Shown here: positions 28,326 to 40,648 of the stretch, piece after piece
Numbering within the stretch: the stretch's first letter is position 1
Layout of the letters: each line of letters begins with the position of its first letter
IMG/VR virus record: IMGVR_UViG_3300033149_001760
Location: 1 to 42,063 of that record
Source: a virus
Reading direction: 5' to 3' (one strand)
DNA: 42,063 bases
Made by a program: the position numbers and the translations under genes
The notes under the pieces: model-generated
Seen by the model: the letters and a program-made list of their open reading frames with translations, nothing else
Databases searched by the model: none
What the model was told of the DNA's origin: nothing

Positions 28326-29708
28326 TTATTGAATTTGTAACCCCTTCATGACCACAGATTTATAGAATTCTGCACGCTTTGCAGTCACGTTTTCAAGGTT
28401 ATAATCTTCCTTAAAATCTTCATATAATTGTTCACCTAAACGCTTACGTAAATCGGCATCTAATATCAACTGTTTCAAGTACTTCTTCCAGTATTTATGT
28501 GAATTTTTCTTATTCGGAATCAACACACAATTCTCCATGTGTCTGCCGTCTATATTATATGGTGGAATGTCACTACAAACAATAGGAAGTTTTCTTGTCC
28601 AGCATTCAACTTGTTTCAAGTTTGACTTCATTCTATTAAACTCATTATCTGCAAGTGGAGCAAGCACAATATCTGTTTCATTCAAAACACCAGCATATGT
28701 GTTGGCTTTCTGTGTCCAACGTCTACCAAAATTACCTTCTCCATCGTATTTCACGTCTCTCTCAAAGTTTAACAACCATTGCAAGTAATCAGGATTTTCA
28801 ATAAGCCTATGATTATCAGTTAAAATCTTTTCATAAACAAGATATACACTTTCTTCAGATTTAATGTCACGTTGTTTACTATCAAATACCTTATCTCTAT
28901 ACTTGTCTTTCAATTCCTGTGAAATTCTTGGGATTTGGTCAACATCACCCCTCGATTTATTAATTGCTTTCACCACTTCATGTGTCCACAATCCCTTCTT
29001 TTCGAGTTCAGTTCTGAAATCCTGATTGAAAGTAATATCTGTTGTACTACCTTCGGTGTCCCAACCAGCGATTGTAATTTTGAATTTTCCTCTGGTCTCT
29101 GGATTACCATTCAATACATTTATCACGCCTTCAAGTTGTTGAACATCGACCATGTGAGAACTACCCGCCATATAAGTAATTCTAACAAGACCATCTGGGT
29201 CTGGTTTCCAGTTGTTTTGAAATTGTTTCATCCACTTAGGGTCAACACTATTATATAATACCTCAATATTGTCTTTACCAGTTACTTTACGAATCTCAGA
29301 TGCAAATAAATCAGTTGTAGTTGTAACGTAATCAGCAATTTTCATGTTCTCAATAATTGGAACATCCAATTTCTTTTCCAAACTCATGTTGTAAAATGGA
29401 TGAAGTCTGTGGAGTTTCCAATAGTCATCAATATCCATAATAAGAATAGTTCCAGATTTTCTTAATTCTTCTGCCAATTTCAACATTTGTGCTGTTTCAC
29501 CTAAAAACTGACGGTGATAATGGATTATGTGAAATGATTTTAAATATTCAACAATATTAGGGTCATTGAAGTCCAATTGTGGGTTTATTTCAACATAAAA
29601 TTCGTCAGAGTGATTTCTTTCCAGTTCTTGTGCTGGGGTTTGAGTCCTGAAGTAGTTTACTCCTGCTCCATCAAGGTTGTAGAATAAAATTCTAATTTTA
29701 CCGTCCAT
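28326..29708 (-). CDS. GT-B-like glycosyltransferase, 460 aa
   Basis: The N-terminal domain starts with KIRILFYNLDGAGVNYFR, a glycosyltransferase-family-4-like Rossmann start. It continues with DIDDYWKL and a TTTTDLFASEIRK segment before VLYNSVDP. The C-terminal half has ITYMAGSSH and then DIVLAPLADNEFNRMKSNLK and KLPIVCSDIPPYN, the usual donor-site Glu/Lys region and following loop. These enzymes add sugars from nucleotide donors. It lies between a Lys-rich protein and the coiled-coil operon and seems to have a separate, AT-rich upstream region. A target on the virion or DNA is possible; neither is proved. Confidence 0.85.
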   Translation of the reverse strand: MDGKIRILFYNLDGAGVNYFRTQTPAQELERNHSDEFYVEINPQLDFNDPNIVEYLKSFHIIHYHRQFLGETAQMLKLAEELRKSGTILIMDIDDYWKLHRLHPFYNMSLEKKLDVPIIENMKIADYVTTTTDLFASEIRKVTGKDNIEVLYNSVDPKWMKQFQNNWKPDPDGLVRITYMAGSSHMVDVQQLEGVINVLNGNPETRGKFKITIAGWDTEGSTTDITFNQDFRTELEKKGLWTHEVVKAINKSRGDVDQIPRISQELKDKYRDKVFDSKQRDIKSEESVYLVYEKILTDNHRLIENPDYLQWLLNFERDVKYDGEGNFGRRWTQKANTYAGVLNETDIVLAPLADNEFNRMKSNLKQVECWTRKLPIVCSDIPPYNIDGRHMENCVLIPNKKNSHKYWKKYLKQLILDADLRKRLGEQLYEDFKEDYNLENVTAKRAEFYKSVVMKGLQIQ

Positions 29709-31062: not shown

Positions 31063-31656
31063 TTATTTAAATTTTATGATTTCCTCTTGAATGATATTCA
31101 ATAATTTATTTGTTGAATTGAAATTAACCACACCTTCACCGATAAGTGGACGAATACTACCCTTATCAACAAAATTCAATGTGTAGGTCACATCATCAGA
31201 TAACTTGTTTTTGATTTTGGTGTACTCAGCAATCTTTTCAGCATTCCTATCCATGAAATCATCATACACAACAATCTCTTTCAAATCTTGATTATAATTC
31301 TCGATTCTCAATATAATATCACCTTTATCTTCACGACCTCTTTTCGTAATAAGGTCATCGACAGTAATTCCATTCAGTTTTAAAATATTTTCAAGTTCAG
31401 GACGCAGTTTCTCCATACGAGAAGTCAGAATAATCGTACTGGTATCAGGGTCAGCCATGTCTGTTTGAAGTTTTGCAAGAATGTTTGGGAATGGTTTGAT
31501 TTCAAATACATCGGTGTCAAGACTTTCTCTGCGCCCCCACCATCCAACGTGTGGATATGGTTGACCCATTTTCTCTTCCCATTGTACTTTTCCTGTTTCT
31601 GGTTCTGGGGAATCAATTAGTGTTCCATCAAAATCATATACTGCCAATCTTTTCAT
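31063..31656 (-). CDS. HAD-superfamily phosphatase, RNA-repair-like
   Basis: 197 residues. The catalytic motif DFDGT is at residues 8-12, with Asp8 as nucleophile and Asp10 as the general acid. Motif II LTSR lies at 77-80, and a later acidic YDD at 131-133 completes the metal site. The overall layout matches the HAD branch seen beside RNA-repair and nucleotide genes (the 'Swiss Army Knife' RNA repair-like family). It would dephosphorylate a small substrate or RNA end. It sits between the ParB-like gene and a PD-(D/E)XK-like protein, downstream of the giant multi-domain gene, in one transcription unit. Confidence 0.8.
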   Translation of the reverse strand: MKRLAVYDFDGTLIDSPEPETGKVQWEEKMGQPYPHVGWWGRRESLDTDVFEIKPFPNILAKLQTDMADPDTSTIILTSRMEKLRPELENILKLNGITVDDLITKRGREDKGDIILRIENYNQDLKEIVVYDDFMDRNAEKIAEYTKIKNKLSDDVTYTLNFVDKGSIRPLIGEGVVNFNSTNKLLNIIQEEIIKFK

Positions 31657-32167: not shown

Positions 32168-35100
32168 TTATTCTTCACTTACTTTTCCAGTTAAATTCAA
32201 TGGAAACCCAAGAGGCTTCCAGTCTTTCAGTTTATTTGACATAAATGGTTTACCACCATCGGCACGATTAACAGCAATTGTTATGTGTGGTTTTGGATTA
32301 TTAGAATGATAACCTTCAACACCAACTGCCATAACCAGTTCGTCCATCGCATAATCAATCACTCTCAACGAAATCTCAATGTTCTTCTCCATATCTTCCT
32401 GCGCATCACTACCGTTTTCAAGTGCACCCATCATTATTGTCATGTGATGTGCAACAACTTCCCAACCTTCAGGTATCATCGGACTTAAAACCTTAAGTAA
32501 ACTGGCTCTTGATTTATCATCAAGAACAACTGCGCTATAACTCACTCTTTTCACTTCTTCTTCTCCTAATAAATTTCTATCTGTTAATGCCCAATATAAT
32601 TCTTTCCTTAATTTTTCATCAACACTGAAGTCTTCATAATTATTCTGAAGAAATTCCAGTACTGATTCATGTGATGCATCATGATATCCACTATCTTTCC
32701 CACCTTGATTATTCCATTTATCGTATTCCTTAACAAAAAAATCAATAGTTACTTGCTTTCCATTGACATTCCATGTCTTTGGTTGTATACCATCGTAATT
32801 AGGGTATCCTTCTTGAATTTCCTTATCTTTCTCTCTCACCAAAGATAGTAATTCTTCTCGGTCATTCCTAACATTATCACTATAAACTTTAATTAATAAT
32901 GATTTCAACATATCACCAATTTCCCTACCTTGTAATCCCATACTCATTAAAACGTTTCCATCAATAGCGAGTTCACCAAAATCTTTTGGATATTTTCCAG
33001 TCAACAATTCCTGTGCTGCTCTTTTTATTGGTTCAGGTAAAATCTCACTGTTTAATGTATTTGGTAAAATCTTGAAGATGTTATGTGCAAGAGTTCTTGC
33101 TGTAACATTATCTATATTATCATCGGCTTGAAATGCTTGTTGAAATGCTTTTAATTCTTTATATGTATCAATATCACATTTCAGTTTCGATTTACAATAT
33201 TCCGCAATGTCTTGAACAAGATGATGTGCTGTAAGCCAAAGAAATTCTCCCATTGTTTTAACAACATTCCATTCTTTACCCATATATAAACCACCATCAC
33301 CGTTAAATATTTGTGGGGTAAGTCCTAAATCTTTAAGTAAATACGCTCCTTCAAACGCATTACCTTTCTTAACAATTTTATCAAACTCAATTAATATCCT
33401 TTCAGGTGGAATTTCTTTAATTCGACCTGCATTCTTTTTAATCATTTCTCTGGTCTCGTCATCAATCTTGAAACCAAAACGTGCAGCGAATTGAACAGCA
33501 CGTAACATTCTCAAAGGGTCATCACTAAATGCTTCTGGATTAACGATACGAATAATTTTATTTTTAAGGTCTTCTTGACCACCAAAAGGGTCAATTATAT
33601 TACCATCAATATCTTTAGCAATCGCATTAATCGTAAAATCCCTGCGTTCCAAATCTTTTTCAAGTGGAAGTTCGTGGTCTGATGACACATCAAATCCTTT
33701 ATGACCACCTTCACCAGTCGCTTTTTCAGTTCTTGGAATCGCCACATCAATTTCTTCTGATGCACCTTGTGGCTTAAATTTTAACACACCAAATTGTTTA
33801 CCCACTGCGTCAACTTTTCCATATTTTGACATGAGTGTACCTAACTTATCCATTGGAATGCCTGTCACAAGAATATCAAGGTCTTTACTTTCTTTACCTA
33901 AAAACTCATCACGTACAGCACCACCAACGCTAAATATCTTACCGCCAAGTTGTTCGACCTCTTCTTTAAAAGGTAAGTCTTGTAATGACATTATATTCTC
34001 ATTCATATCGGGTACAAGACTACTAAAATATTCTGAGACTTCCAAATCATCTTCATTCACAGAACCAAATTCCAAATTATTAATGTCGCCTTGATTACAA
34101 GCAACACTGGTATTACCCAAACCTGCAAGCTGACATTTCCTCTTTACTTTAACGGTTTTTGAACCAGTACCAAAAGATTTGTCTCTTTCGATTAATGCGT
34201 TATCACCATTAATCTTATTATCATAATATGTATATAATCTTCTCGTTAATTTTTTCTTATTATCAGCATTCAAATTTCGAATAAATTCTCCATTAAATGG
34301 TTTATTATGCTCTATTGAATCTTGAAACAATTTTGAAATGAAAACATTAAAGTCTGAATATTTTTCATATCTTTTTTTATTAGCATGTATATTTTTTAAT
34401 CCTTCGAGATAATATGCATTATATTCTTCATCTCTATTATAATATGAATCGTTTGATGATTTGTAGGTATCACTATATTTAGTATCATCCAGATAATGGA
34501 CAAATTCGTGGACAAATGTATCTTCGTTCACCCAAGATGCAAATCTAATTCGGGCAAAATGTATATCCGATTCGACATTTTGTTTTGGTGGTTCGTCACT
34601 AAATGATTGTCGCTTCTCTAATATAAAAAAACAAAGTGTTTTTGTTTTAGGGTCAAAAAATGCCCTATTATTTTTCATTAAAGGAAAAAATGCTATTTGT
34701 AAATCAATTATACTTATTTGGTTTATATTAAATCCGACACCACTAAACATTCTTTCACCATTCGTAGTATTGAATTCAAGTTCAATACTTTCAAATTTAA
34801 TGTTATTAATATTCTCTTTAATTTTCTTATATAAATTCTTCCCTAAATTAGTGGTCTTTATATCAGAACCAAAATCTTCTCCTAACATATATTCGTCATC
34901 GGTTGCATCTCCTTTAACATGATTATATTCAAGGTCTTCATACATCGCAACATTAGCATCGAGGTCATTATTAATGCTTGGTGAAGTATCGTTGGTATTG
35001 TAAGGGGGAAAACCGTCTTGTCCAACATCACTATCTGTACTGAATTTAGCACTACCGTCTTCATCTACTTCGACACCCATTTTTTCAGCACCATGAGGTT

Positions 35101-37459
35101 GCATAAAAAAATCTGTAAATCCAACATCAAAGAATCCAATTACTCCACTTGGTTTATATCCAAGATTTTCTGGATTATAAAAATCATAACTATCAATCCC
35201 ATGTTCTCTGAGTTCTTCAACGATTCTTAAAATACTAAAAAAGAATTCTCCGTCTTGACTGTTCTTTTTAAAATAGTTATCAACTTTACTTTTATCAATT
35301 GCGTCATCATTATATTGATGACCATCCAAATATGAATCCAATGCTTCTTTATAATCGGTATCAAATATATTCTTGAAAACGTAATCAAGTCTCTCATACA
35401 TTCGTTTAAAATTGGCTTCATCGGGAACGAGTTTTTCTAAAATAATCGCATATGTTTTCCATTCTCCCTCTGGTATATTTTCTGGGGTTACCTCAAACAC
35501 ACGATAAACATCTGCAATATATTTAAGTTTTTTACCAACCAGTTTCAGATTCTCATAAGCCTCACTATTATCTTTTGTGATTTTCAATACTTTATTATCC
35601 CCAATATCGTATGCAACACCAATTGTACCATGTCCAAGATATTTAGGTTCTTGAATACCTAACTTAGTTGTAATTCTATTAGCAATTCTATCCGCTTTAT
35701 CTCTTGGGTAATCTTCTTCGAGTTGTTCTTCAGTAATGTTTTCAGGTAATTGAATAACATCATCATCACCAATATTTGGTTCATCAACACCATAATAACC
35801 ACCAGTGTCAAAGAATTTTAAAACACCGTCTTTATATCCAAGATTTCTTTTTTCAACATAGTCTTTTGATTTAATTCCATATCCCAATAATTCTTTGCGA
35901 ATATTTAAAATACCAACAAGAAACTCATATGCTGCTTGCCTATCGGTTTGACTAACATTTGCTGCTGGATTATCAGTCAATACATGTTTTGCTATTTCAA
36001 GCATCTGATTATAATCAAATCTCTTAGGAATTCTTATTGAAGATAAAATATCAGTATATCCCATTCCTGCTGGTTGAATTTTCTCTATATCATCATCAAA
36101 TTTTCTGAATTTCTCAAGTGGTTTCTCATTAACATTTTCTTGCATAATAACAAAAATAGATTTATTTGTAGCTGTATCAAGAACCTTATATAAATTAAAA
36201 ATTGTTGCAATGTTTTGTGGTCTTACTCTCAATAATTTTGATGCAGCATCAGCTTCACTAACATCCGTAGTTAATTTCATTACGAGATTATCATTTATTT
36301 GATAAGCAAAACCATTCGCACCACCACCAATATATTTTGGTTGTGTCAGACTTAATTTATTGGCAATCTCTCTCGCCAATTCATCAGCATAATTTCTATC
36401 AGTTAATGTATCGGGGTCAACAGCAGGTATATCTTCATTAATAACATAGCTTTCACTTAATAATGGGTCTCTATTATAGAATCCTCGTCTAATAAGATAT
36501 TCTTGTAACTTCAATAAGTTCCCGTAAAACTGTTCTTTATTATCTACGTGATTCAGTGTTTCTCTTATGTTATTTACACATTCATGGAAACTATCAGCCA
36601 GTACAGAAATACCTTCCACTGATTTGTTAGGATATTTATCACGTTTCGAAACCAGATTAACGAAACCTTCATTAATAACTGCATTACTATTATCACCACC
36701 ATCACTAACACTGTAAGGCATTTGTGCCCACATACCTGTTCTAATGTCTTGTCCACCACCAGCATCGCTTAATATGTCATCATTACCATCAGCATAATTG
36801 TAGAGTTCATACATCTGATATCTATTCCTCTTCTTTCTATCAGGACTATAATGGGTATCATAAACTTCATCATTAAGACCGTAATCAGTTAAAACAATTG
36901 CTGGTTGTCCATCACGAAGAACCTCACCATAACTACTTGGTCTTCCCATATCACCAGCATTTTGACCGTAATTGGCTATAAAATTACTTAAATCTTGTGC
37001 AAACTCGTTCTCGTAAAGAAACTCTTCTTCTTCACGAGTTATGTAGTTCTCTTCAAATCTTTTATTTTGTCCTTTACTTTGTACTTCATAATTTATTAAA
37101 AAATATCCCAATATATCGAGATTCGGAATTTCTGTTAATTCTTCAATTCGTTTCTTTGTAACTTTTTTTGCCTTTTCCGCAATCAACCAAGTGTCATCAT
37201 CTGCACTATCAAATACTTCAGTTACGATATGTTGAGTATCACGATAATAACCAGCACCTGCTTCAGCACCATTCTGTGCAACGCCTTTGGCGTTCATTGC
37301 AAGTTTTAGTACCTTCTCACCATCAATATCATACACTCTTCTGCCAGTACCACTACCAATTCTTGGTAATCTTTCATCGGCATATCTCATCCTACCAGCA
37401 TAGGAATTTATATTCAGAAATTCTGGTAAGAAATTTTGTTTAAATTCATCATAAGTCAT
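32168..37459 (-). CDS. Giant polyvalent protein: three kinase-like domains, metallopeptidase motif, CCA-adding-type nucleotidyltransferase, 2H phosphoesterase motif
   Basis: 1763 residues. Three regions (about 30-200, 380-560 and 610-780) each have a Gly-rich loop and a following Lys strand (GSGTGRRVY...VLKLA; GGGANGFAY...VMKLT; GHGTIGVAY...VLKIT), and end in DxG-like residues (TDYG, FDTG, FDVG). A zincin motif HEFVHYLDD is near 985. From about 1170 a tRNA nucleotidyltransferase/poly(A)-polymerase-type core is clear: FSVGGAVRDEFLG, SKDLDILV, RRDFTINAIAKD and DPLRMLRAVQFAARFGF. The last ~130 residues have two H-x-T motifs, HHMTI near 1671 and PHITI near 1725, as in 2H phosphoesterases. Known roles are kinase-like transfer, proteolysis, CCA/RNA 3'-end addition and cyclic phosphate opening. 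A joint RNA-repair or counter-defence role is inference. It is followed by nuclease-like and phosphatase genes. Confidence 0.85.
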   Translation of the reverse strand: MTYDEFKQNFLPEFLNINSYAGRMRYADERLPRIGSGTGRRVYDIDGEKVLKLAMNAKGVAQNGAEAGAGYYRDTQHIVTEVFDSADDDTWLIAEKAKKVTKKRIEELTEIPNLDILGYFLINYEVQSKGQNKRFEENYITREEEEFLYENEFAQDLSNFIANYGQNAGDMGRPSSYGEVLRDGQPAIVLTDYGLNDEVYDTHYSPDRKKRNRYQMYELYNYADGNDDILSDAGGGQDIRTGMWAQMPYSVSDGGDNSNAVINEGFVNLVSKRDKYPNKSVEGISVLADSFHECVNNIRETLNHVDNKEQFYGNLLKLQEYLIRRGFYNRDPLLSESYVINEDIPAVDPDTLTDRNYADELAREIANKLSLTQPKYIGGGANGFAYQINDNLVMKLTTDVSEADAASKLLRVRPQNIATIFNLYKVLDTATNKSIFVIMQENVNEKPLEKFRKFDDDIEKIQPAGMGYTDILSSIRIPKRFDYNQMLEIAKHVLTDNPAANVSQTDRQAAYEFLVGILNIRKELLGYGIKSKDYVEKRNLGYKDGVLKFFDTGGYYGVDEPNIGDDDVIQLPENITEEQLEEDYPRDKADRIANRITTKLGIQEPKYLGHGTIGVAYDIGDNKVLKITKDNSEAYENLKLVGKKLKYIADVYRVFEVTPENIPEGEWKTYAIILEKLVPDEANFKRMYERLDYVFKNIFDTDYKEALDSYLDGHQYNDDAIDKSKVDNYFKKNSQDGEFFFSILRIVEELREHGIDSYDFYNPENLGYKPSGVIGFFDVGFTDFFMQPHGAEKMGVEVDEDGSAKFSTDSDVGQDGFPPYNTNDTSPSINNDLDANVAMYEDLEYNHVKGDATDDEYMLGEDFGSDIKTTNLGKNLYKKIKENINNIKFESIELEFNTTNGERMFSGVGFNINQISIIDLQIAFFPLMKNNRAFFDPKTKTLCFFILEKRQSFSDEPPKQNVESDIHFARIRFASWVNEDTFVHEFVHYLDDTKYSDTYKSSNDSYYNRDEEYNAYYLEGLKNIHANKKRYEKYSDFNVFISKLFQDSIEHNKPFNGEFIRNLNADNKKKLTRRLYTYYDNKINGDNALIERDKSFGTGSKTVKVKRKCQLAGLGNTSVACNQGDINNLEFGSVNEDDLEVSEYFSSLVPDMNENIMSLQDLPFKEEVEQLGGKIFSVGGAVRDEFLGKESKDLDILVTGIPMDKLGTLMSKYGKVDAVGKQFGVLKFKPQGASEEIDVAIPRTEKATGEGGHKGFDVSSDHELPLEKDLERRDFTINAIAKDIDGNIIDPFGGQEDLKNKIIRIVNPEAFSDDPLRMLRAVQFAARFGFKIDDETREMIKKNAGRIKEIPPERILIEFDKIVKKGNAFEGAYLLKDLGLTPQIFNGDGGLYMGKEWNVVKTMGEFLWLTAHHLVQDIAEYCKSKLKCDIDTYKELKAFQQAFQADDNIDNVTARTLAHNIFKILPNTLNSEILPEPIKRAAQELLTGKYPKDFGELAIDGNVLMSMGLQGREIGDMLKSLLIKVYSDNVRNDREELLSLVREKDKEIQEGYPNYDGIQPKTWNVNGKQVTIDFFVKEYDKWNNQGGKDSGYHDASHESVLEFLQNNYEDFSVDEKLRKELYWALTDRNLLGEEEVKRVSYSAVVLDDKSRASLLKVLSPMIPEGWEVVAHHMTIMMGALENGSDAQEDMEKNIEISLRVIDYAMDELVMAVGVEGYHSNNPKPHITIAVNRADGGKPFMSNKLKDWKPLGFPLNLTGKVSEE

Positions 37460-37500: not shown

Positions 37501-37528
37501 AAAAAAGCGGAATGATTATTACGCTTTT
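37501..37528 (-). terminator. Hairpin terminator overlapping the stop of the 237-residue gene
   Basis: AAAAGCG (37503-37509) pairs with CGCTTTT (37522-37528) around a 12-base loop holding the stop codon. A T-run follows on the minus strand. The stem is short, so efficiency may be modest. Confidence 0.6.
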
Positions 37529-38232
37529 ACTTTGCTTTTATCTCGGATTTCTTTAATTGTTTCAATAACCACAGATTTGATTAAATCTTTGTTCTCATTT
37601 AAAACTTCTTGAATTCTTTCAATGGCATACATTTCAATTATCGTACCCTTGATAGCTTCTTCAAAGACAGTACCAAGATTTTCATCAAGATAACCATGAA
37701 CAACATTTTTCACATTTTCAACCAATGCTACTTCATTTATTTGCATTGTTGCACCAGCAGGTGCTGCAACAGTAGGTGAGCCAGCAGGTGCTGAAGTCAA
37801 ATATTGTGTTCCGTTATAATTTACAGCAGGTGGGGTTTCTCCAGCAGGAGCATTACCTTGAAAATTACTAATACTTTCAGCAAGAGTTTGTTTTCTTTTC
37901 TTTTCAAGGTCAGCAAATAACTGTTCATCTCTTTCAGGTGATGGTGCTGCAACTGTGGGGGTTGCAACTGCCGTAGGTGCAGTTTCGTTAACAGTATGCA
38001 CTTTGACACCACCATGTTTCTCAGCAACTTTATTTTCAACGACTTTAATTAGTGTGCTTGCAGGATTCTCTTGTCCTGATTTAAGTGAGGCTTGTAAACC
38101 ATGAAGGAAAACATCTCGTGGTGCTACACCTGTGCCAACAGATTCACCTAATTGTGAAGGGATGATATTTCGATTTTGTTTCTCCTTATGGATTTCATCC
38201 TTCAATTTATTTAAGTCAAGTTTCTTTGCCAT
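37519..38232 (-). CDS. Pro/Ala/Thr-linker protein, probable virion-associated, 237 aa
   Basis: The N-terminal ~75 residues are basic and helical. They are followed by two Ala/Pro/Thr/Val-rich flexible stretches (around 85-100 and 130-160) and a helical C-terminal ~65 residues ending in KSKVKA. No enzyme motif or membrane span is present. Such linker composition is common in virion or scaffolding proteins. Own promoter motif 23 bases upstream and own terminator, so it is probably a single-gene unit. Confidence 0.55.
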   Translation of the reverse strand: MAKKLDLNKLKDEIHKEKQNRNIIPSQLGESVGTGVAPRDVFLHGLQASLKSGQENPASTLIKVVENKVAEKHGGVKVHTVNETAPTAVATPTVAAPSPERDEQLFADLEKKRKQTLAESISNFQGNAPAGETPPAVNYNGTQYLTSAPAGSPTVAAPAGATMQINEVALVENVKNVVHGYLDENLGTVFEEAIKGTIIEMYAIERIQEVLNENKDLIKSVVIETIKEIRDKSKVKA

Positions 38233-39850: not shown

Positions 39851-40648
39851 TTATTCATATTTTTTAAATACGAGTGTTATGTATTCAATTAAATGAGGAA
39901 CGATATTAAGATATTCCATCTCACTTACATCATACCAACCATAATTAGTATTTTCATCATCAAGAGTAATGTCCGTTGGGTCATCCTCGTATCTGCAAGC
40001 AAATATGTGTTCAATACTATCAGCATGTCTTTCAATACTAAATGATTTGGTAAATTTCTTAAGTTCTAAACCAGTTTCTTCCTCAATTTCTCTTTCAACT
40101 GCTTGTTGTGGTGTTTCGCCTTTATCAATACCACCACCAACAAGACCCCATTTACTTGGCATCCAAGGTGCTTTCTCACCTCTTTTCAATAAAAGGATTT
40201 TATTATCTTTATTTACAATAACCGCAACACTATTTTTTTGTTTTTCTTTTTTCTCCTTTTTTTCGGCTTCATTCATCACATCATTATGTTGTCTATTCAC
40301 ATTAAACGCTTTCAAATCCGAAGTCATATCATTGGTTATATCACGTCTAACTTCTCTACTGGTTTTCACAGCATTTCTGTCTTGATTTAACGTGGTTTCA
40401 ATAAACGCTTTCATTGGTTGACCACCAGCAAGTGTGAATTGTGTGTTATCACCAGTTTGTGGATTAAAGTAGTCAAAATAATTCTTCAATCTCTTCATTG
40501 CTTGATAGGTGATAACACCGTTCTTAAGCATGAATTTAGCTCGTTTTACGCCCTCTCCTTGCGGATTGGATACCAAGGCTGTCTGGATACCTTTTAACAC
40601 GTCTGAGGGTATCCTATACGATTTATCATATAGTTCTTGGTTAGCCAT
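39851..40648 (-). CDS. Nudix hydrolase with an extra N-terminal domain
   Basis: 265 residues. The Nudix box is at 172-194 (GGIDKGETPQQAVEREIEEE then TGL), with all G-x5-E-x7-REUxEExGU residues present. The Nudix domain occupies about 140-265. The first ~135 residues form a separate helical domain (TYQAMKRLKNYFDYFNP, DITNDMTSDLKAF) whose family is not recognised. Nudix enzymes cleave nucleoside diphosphate-linked compounds such as NDP-sugars, dinucleotides or capped RNA. In phages they may change nucleotide pools or RNA ends. It overlaps the upstream 214-residue gene by eight bases. Confidence 0.9.
   Translation of the reverse strand: MANQELYDKSYRIPSDVLKGIQTALVSNPQGEGVKRAKFMLKNGVITYQAMKRLKNYFDYFNPQTGDNTQFTLAGGQPMKAFIETTLNQDRNAVKTSREVRRDITNDMTSDLKAFNVNRQHNDVMNEAEKKEKKEKQKNSVAVIVNKDNKILLLKRGEKAPWMPSKWGLVGGGIDKGETPQQAVEREIEEETGLELKKFTKSFSIERHADSIEHIFACRYEDDPTDITLDDENTNYGWYDVSEMEYLNIVPHLIEYITLVFKKYE

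Follow-up and report, generated by a model that had tools for sequence, protein, structure and literature searches.

The minus strand of a viral record of 42,063 bases (IMG/VR record IMGVR_UViG_3300033149_001760, analysed over its whole length and called the window below) carries a single open reading frame (ORF) of 1763 amino acid residues (aa) at positions 32168..37459, with its first base at 37459. This is probably a polyvalent polyprotein gene of a giant T4-like phage, the product of which would be packaged into the head, processed by the prohead protease and delivered by injection, bringing tRNA-repair and host-modifying enzymes with it. A wider claim, on which we are evenly divided, is that a lineage of giant T4-like phages combines a constant kinase header, a 45-residue prohead-targeting element and interchangeable modules flanked by protease sites, so that from one gene a tailored collection of enzymes would be injected as separate pieces, among them a CCA enzyme and a tRNA cyclic phosphodiesterase (CPDase) acting in tRNA repair as soon as infection begins. 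Residue numbers refer to the window protein unless stated otherwise, and all of its modules and sites lie on the minus strand.

The frame is no assembly error because near-identical copies were found in two other contigs (100% and 99.9% identity), in addition to further relatives at 55–70% identity. The full-length fusion was kept in L005/L009 (best segment at 68%) and in L013 (58%). Fission or fusion was evident among other relatives: the kinase part and the CCA part were separate ORFs in L010, L011, L012 and L006/L007/L008/L015, with the 2H part as an additional separate ORF in L010 and the L006 group. At L006:11489-12493 (also in L007, L008 and L015), an antisense LAGLIDADG homing endonuclease gene splits the effector gene into two halves; in the close relative L065, the effector is one unbroken 2317-aa frame. 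The original prediction, made from the letters of this DNA, had described one 1763-residue frame with no strand given. That frame is real and recurs in independent contigs, and the motifs quoted for it were all located in the window protein: HEFVH at aa 984, GGAVRD at 1179, DLDILV at 1193, RRDFTINAIA at 1272, DDPLRMLRAVQF at 1313, HHMTI at 1671 and PHITI at 1724. It did not mention the element at aa 1091–1136, the shuffled payloads or the linker sites, which are described first.

The element in question, element 2 (EL2, aa 1091–1136; 34052..34189), consists of about 45 residues with the near-invariant pattern KC.LGG.GNTS.ACNQGD..NL, contains two invariant Cys, ends in [ILV]xE and divides the kinase-rich header from the payload. 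When 2.9 million viral contigs were scanned with a DNA pattern, it was detected in 64 stretches, mostly within long frames; L046 and L079 had it in short ones (84 and 182 aa), and L047 and L070 had two copies in tandem. Of the 64 contigs, 13 were 200 kb or longer. Among bacteria and archaea (one genome for each of 84,980 species), a single match was obtained, in a contig of a Bacteroidota metagenome-assembled genome, which is too little for naming a host. A tblastn search of the phage collection gave no match for element 2 alone and two records, XacN1 and SCTP-2, for aa 1–1165.

The removal of near-duplicates left 50 proteins, which were mapped with profiles from module seeds; each module envelope was set by a single-seed profile derived from these 50 proteins themselves, and some training segments are common to the kinase profiles. 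The order of modules was a kinase-like header (41/50), element 1 (39/50), element 2 (50/50) and then the payload. Element 1 (EL1, aa 800–857; 34889..35062), with the pattern EDGSxxFST..G.D.FP.Y..., was modelled with low confidence. Payload positions were filled by GNAT, ART or any of five unnamed modules, often followed by the CCA enzyme (29/50), with a 2H domain of the window type in 12 proteins. As many as nine kinds of module stood directly behind element 2 and 49 distinct module strings were counted in the 50 proteins, the true number of architectures being below 49, as some of the proteins end at contig ends. Since the payload slots are refilled among relatives, the locus can be regarded as a combinatorial effector polyprotein. 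Pfam families, counted in 37 of the 50 non-redundant proteins, comprised PolyA_pol (26), 2_5_RNA_ligase2 (10), Acb1 (8), Acetyltransf_1 (8) and ART-PolyVal (6). The unnamed payload modules WVS, SEAY, EGVG, GEGN and AYRV, searched singly, had no Pfam match, and GEGN was the only one of the five with a PHROGs match, a weak one to phrog_16075 (0.0039).

The border between element 2 and the payload carries a putative prohead-protease site, VNE (aa 1134–1136; 34052..34060), held at a fixed spacing in the 50 proteins. The fifth residue past the NNL (or its variant) of element 2 was I, L or V in all 50 and the seventh was E in 46, D in three and A in one, with the sequences diverging beyond it. Three more putative sites were assigned in the header: INE in the KIN1b–KIN2 linker (aa 340–342; 36434..36442), which lies in a stretch of low predicted local distance difference test score (pLDDT) at 336–342; LPE in the KIN2–KIN3 linker (aa 571–573; 35741..35749), which adjoins a low-pLDDT stretch at 574–582; and VDE at the start of element 1 (aa 798–800; 35060..35068). 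In the header alignment, [ILVM]xE was found at E800 in 38/38 sequences, at E573 in 20/20, at E342 in 19/22, at E264 in 28/29, at E1091 in 29/36 and at E1136 in 34/38.

The linkers between modules were enriched in the same motif. From 95 inter-module linkers, 73 were retained after the removal of similar ones, the element junctions being deliberately excluded. The tripeptide [ILV]NE occurred in 35 of the 73 linkers vs. 8.4 ± 2.7 in equal-length windows inside modules, and the looser [ILV]xE in 65 vs. 37.6 ± 4.1. The [ILV]xE test was shaped after inspection of the sequences; in a less biased check of 937 reduced-alphabet tripeptide classes, none exceeded its shuffled expectation by as much as [ILV]NE, which was present in 35 linkers vs. 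6.4 after shuffling. The general form of T4 gp21 cleavage sites is [IL]-x-E, and, judged by their sequence, the linker sites look like this prohead-protease motif.

A protease of the corresponding kind was observed in the large relatives. Peptidase_S77 (the gp21 family) was encoded in 11 of the 17 relatives' contigs searched, all among the 13 of at least 200 kb (11/13), and a T4-type major capsid protein was detected in 12 of 18 records, i.e., in 12 of the 13 contigs of at least 200 kb. In all 12 capsid proteins, INE followed by S was located at residues 58–60, near the propeptide position; FLTE stands at 65 in T4 gp23. The protease itself has an N-terminal position at which [ILV]xE was read in 14 loci (10 of 11 genomes), with VTE in the eleventh, L080. 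In G001, G002, G003 and G009 (L087–L094), the protease frame was 615–653 aa long, not 235–266, because an intein-like insert of some 400 residues interrupts the protease domain. ORFs were also found at the 5' end of the prohead protease gene at L083:2102-2788, where the ORF overlaps the protease gene, and at L085:2130-2807; we take both to resemble GIY-YIG endonucleases.

The polyprotein begins with MTYDEFKQNFLPE (aa 1–13; 37421..37459), a candidate capsid-targeting start followed by [IL]xE, proposed from its likeness to T4 internal proteins. The effector start MTYxEF (MTYDEF in the window) resembles the MKTYQEF(IAE) of T4 ipII/ipIII, the likeness being short, and [ILVM]xE was present at E13 in 17 of 24 relatives. 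Among the 458 ORFs of the relative G001, the effector was the one with a MTYxEF-type start. In T4, gp21 cuts Alt at ITE-6 and LTE-619, according to excerpts of PMC5694885.

The header was modelled over aa 1–1165 from an alignment of 39 sequences, with a mean pLDDT of 71 and mostly above 90 in the kinase modules. Three tandem kinase-like folds had been predicted, and this stands for the second and third, which have a protein-kinase fold in the predicted structure. KIN2 (aa 354–563; 35771..36400) was aligned over aa 358–559 with PKR (VIA-align Z 11.1, root-mean-square deviation (rmsd) 3.7, 150 residues aligned) and KIN3 (aa 586–781; 35117..35704) over aa 596–786 with CDK2 (Z 9.2, rmsd 4.0, 138 aligned). 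In KIN3, K41, E48, N180 and the DxG Asp D193 were invariant in 23 relatives and the catalytic-loop Asp D174 was present in at least 90%, so by sequence region 3 and its relatives keep the kinase catalytic residues. The KIN3 profile searched against PDB sequences gave three matches with E values of 0.95 or worse, none of them a kinase. The unusual catalytic loops reported in the original prediction were confirmed: the Asp-to-Asn spacing in regions 2 and 3 was one residue above the canonical one, and region 1 had a Ser at the expected place of the Asn.

KIN1 (aa 26–210; 36830..37384), the first kinase-like module, is a divergent and less certain kinase relative. Its best Z was 3.2, to kinases, aminoglycoside phosphotransferases and SAICAR synthetases, with a mean pLDDT of 74 when modelled alone, and a Foldseek search returned no match with E below 0.1. 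The KIN1 profile scored region 3 at 42 bits, a value that is partly circular because regions 2 and 3 had themselves supplied 2 of the 29 segments used in training; its profile match to the SteC kinase was weak (0.021). KIN1 belongs to the phrog_4301 family (4.1e-28), and tblastn identified a relative with 28% identity, ORF170 of Xanthomonas phage XacN1 (phrog_4301), which is similar in sequence but forms a single stand-alone protein of 215 aa. Between KIN1 and KIN2 lies KIN1b (aa 213–333; 36461..36823), a module with no assigned function, helical in the model, partly at low confidence, and recurring in 31 of the 50 proteins. By analogy with the kinases of polyvalent proteins in excerpts of PMC5512222, it may be guessed that the kinase modules modify host proteins.

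The payload of the window protein includes a CCA-adding enzyme (aa 1161–1552; 32804..33979). Its identity as a CCA-adding domain is certain from its sequence, which supports the nucleotidyltransferase originally predicted: both Pfam domains were above their cut-offs (PolyA_pol 2.2e-23; PolyA_pol_RNAbd 3.9e-14), and phmmer matched PDB 6ibp at 2.4e-31. The window copy (L002) has all of GGxVRD, DxD, RRDF[TS]xNA and [ED]DPxRxxR, and a few relatives depart from single patterns. The phage module has DDxxR where cellular CCA-adding enzymes presumably carry EDxxR. Like the bacterial enzymes (PDB 6ibp and 1miv), it has head and RNA-binding domains; unlike them, it is fused into a phage polyprotein. Exactly one CCA head-domain match was found in 12 of the 13 large contigs. 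In eight contigs the match lay in an open frame of 749–2693 aa; in the other four the frame had 531–596 aa and was separate from the mapped effector. Thus, the CCA function is kept while its attachment to the fusion comes and goes. The largest open frame of this search, 2693 aa, was that at G003:C1 ~178380-178769.

The C-terminus carries a 2H phosphoesterase (aa 1637–1748; 32216..32551). Both of its HxT motifs were invariant in 12/12 relatives, and 11 of the 12 matched Pfam tRNA_lig_CPD, the phosphodiesterase family of fungal tRNA ligases (best member 2e-7). The 2H domain anticipated at this end is therefore, by sequence, of the fungal tRNA-ligase CPDase type; it shares with that domain the family match and the two HxT motifs and differs in that the window member lies just below the Pfam cut-off (21.4 bits vs. 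23; E 1.9e-4). No ligase domain was found in the same protein as the 2H domain, and the 2H profile matched no phosphoesterase among PDB sequences, the best hit (0.039) being to MYB. In the relative G001, 33 tRNA genes were detected, 32 of which are without an encoded CCA (L121–L129) and one of which was read by ARAGORN as anticodon CTA; the sole CCA-type match of G001 is the effector locus. From its domain content, the window payload fits tRNA maturation and repair.

Three neighbouring genes also lie on the minus strand. Two genes downstream, a HAD phosphatase (31063..31656), with a homologue in 12 of 14 related loci, had its best match in the "Swiss Army Knife" RNA repair family HAD_SAK_1 (2.4e-4; 21.4 bits, below the cut-off of 25.6) and is probably of the RNA-repair kind. 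The upstream neighbour encodes a 237-aa protein (37519..38232) with an invariant Q[IL]NE (8/8) in a variable linker, possibly a co-packaged internal protein. A NUDIX protein (39851..40648) contains an invariant NE in a variable linker just ahead of the NUDIX domain (NE 8/8, [IL]NE 7/8, MNE in the window); PHROGs also link it to the portal protein family phrog_15528. A glycosyltransferase-like gene at window positions 28326-29708 was the best conserved of nine neighbours compared, 78–88% identical in more distant relatives. Elsewhere in G001, a 1044-aa DUF3008 protein (L117:8690-11821) has nine [ILV]NE and is the strongest outlier of the 458 ORFs; it is possibly a second processed virion protein.

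Several results weigh against packaging and cleavage of the polyprotein. The window's own 42-kb record gave no match to an S77 protease or a T4-type capsid protein, and the protease was found in none of 41 smaller contigs and was also absent from four contigs of 94–168 kb and two of 200–218 kb. The effector and protease loci are about 115 kb apart in G001, and fragments are therefore expected to miss the protease. The 12 capsid proteins are close relatives of one another, and related sequences also inflate the motif counts. The T4-like N-terminal start forms an ordered helix in the model (pLDDT about 95). Of the 17 header [ILVM]xE positions that reach 60%, eight fall where the model is ordered, for the most part in kinase modules, so the motif by itself is frequent, and 15 of the 33 [ILV]xE of the window protein are in or near low-confidence stretches, which is no strong bias. 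By ratio to module interiors, [ILV]NE ranked fifth, behind four rarer classes, and the G001 effector ORF was no proteome-wide [ILV]NE outlier (p = 0.07). The mirror pattern E[ND][ILV] was enriched about two-fold in linkers (26 vs. 12.3), against four-fold for [ILV][ND]E (52 vs. 12.5), and the loosest mirror Ex[ILV] (105 vs. 65, 1.6-fold) nearly equalled [ILV]xE (118 vs. 65, 1.8-fold). With the reversed motifs also in excess, it is [ILV]NE and the positionally fixed sites that carry the argument, rather than the loose motif. In 4 of the 12 genomes the CCA enzyme stands apart from the effector, so it need not be an injected effector.

Alternatively, the protein could be an uncleaved multi-enzyme outside the virion, staying whole in the infected cell as a hub of tRNA repair and host modification, with [ILV]NE being compositional or inherited. 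We consider this rather unlikely, even though the CCA enzyme, the tRNA-ligase-type 2H domain and the HAD neighbour make a coherent tRNA-repair set, jumbo phages employ such enzymes for RNA repair (as given in excerpts of PMC7824862) and the CCA enzyme is separate in some relatives. A protein that remains whole gives no reason for the fixed-spacing [ILV]xE behind element 2 or the first rank of [ILV]NE in linkers, nor for the recurrence of this tripeptide close to the propeptide position of the capsid protein and in two genes of the neighbourhood. The role in tRNA or RNA repair suggested in the original prediction is favoured by the gene content, with the qualification that the CCA enzyme is not obligatory in the fusion.

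Cleavage of the protein by its own HEFVH metallopeptidase, also put forward at the outset, is very unlikely. The zincin-like domain (aa 881–1085; 34205..34819) is related to a stand-alone protein, gp462 of Salicola phage SCTP-2, whose gene lies two genes away from that of a putative RNA ligase; HEFVH and then a Glu-containing downstream stretch are common to both proteins, and self-processing by the zincin domains of polyvalent proteins was proposed by Iyer et al. (excerpts of PMC5512222). However, the domain occurred in one of the 50 mapped proteins and a viral-contig scan with it yielded just two contigs, both of this same phage, whereas the linkers and their prohead-protease-type sites are general, and processing by HEFVH was rejected as a general rule. 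The domain had no Pfam peptidase match, and the low model confidence across it may merely reflect the scarcity of relatives.

Least probable of all is that element 2 is a recombination tract, a DNA segment kept for payload exchange by homologous recombination with no protein role: the payload does change directly behind it, but its third-base identity at four-fold sites (0.46) is about the same as that of KIN3 (0.46), KIN1 (0.47) and the CCA module (0.49), so the conservation of element 2 is at the protein and not the DNA level, and such a tract is unsupported.

For the packaged and cleaved polyprotein, we infer the following course from late expression to injection and substrates. The polyprotein would be made late in infection and drawn into the prohead, probably by the header together with EL1 and EL2. 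The T4 gp21-like prohead protease of the phage would then cut after the Glu of the linker [ILV]-x-E sites, and the released modules would travel inside the head and pass into the host together with the DNA, in the manner of T4 Alt and the internal proteins. Inside the host, the kinase modules would modify host proteins, and the CCA enzyme, the tRNA-ligase-type 2H CPDase and the neighbouring HAD phosphatase would mature and repair tRNA from the first minutes of infection. In relatives, GNAT, ART, Acb1/LigT-like 2H and unnamed modules occupy the payload slots instead. The "polyvalent protein" effector of the original prediction holds as far as the polyvalent character is concerned, with ART-PolyVal, GNAT and 2H modules in relatives; its injection is possible.

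If true, polyvalent proteins and T4-type ejection proteins would be joined by a simple code in which payload modules stand between capsid-protease sites, and this would help to account for the passage through a tail tube of proteins whose frames reach about 2700 residues. Element 2 together with [ILV]NE linkers would offer a sequence rule for spotting injected effectors in unannotated giant phages, the question of giant-phage injected cargo would become testable by mass spectrometry, and there would be a natural, modular example of how several enzymes can be loaded into the head of a T4-type phage.

Polyvalent proteins, injected Alt and internal proteins, phage CCA enzymes and 2H domains are already known. 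A search of the open-licence literature on polyvalent proteins with a prohead protease, tRNA nucleotidyltransferase in virions and prohead protease with ejection proteins found no such system, and the linker-coded, shuffled format appears to be new. Polyvalent proteins of phages and conjugative elements are large, join kinase, ART, GNAT, 2H and peptidase domains and are predicted to be injected with the DNA (Iyer et al. 2017, excerpts of PMC5512222); kinase domains without a C-terminal subdomain are described among them in the same excerpts. The window protein resembles them in joining several domains of unlike biochemistry in one polypeptide, and the repertoire is similar, with kinases and 2H in the window and ART-PolyVal, Acetyltransf_1 and 2_5_RNA_ligase2 in relatives. 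In those excerpts, processing is ascribed to internal zincin/assemblin-like domains, whereas here the linkers carry putative sites at which a distinct enzyme, the prohead protease, would act; those excerpts describe neither element 2 nor the fixed [ILV]xE, and the terms CCA and gp21 have no occurrence in the main text of PMC5512222. The T4 Alt and IPI-III proteins are packaged in the head, cut by gp21 and injected, with a diverse anti-host payload behind a constant targeting part (excerpts of PMC5694885, PMC3012670 and PMC7411985). The likeness to them lies in the gp21-type [IL]xE motif at the ends of pieces, seen here as motif presence. The difference is that T4 makes short separate proteins, whereas here many modules are encoded in one frame (open for up to 2693 aa), with putative sites between modules and an internal constant element.

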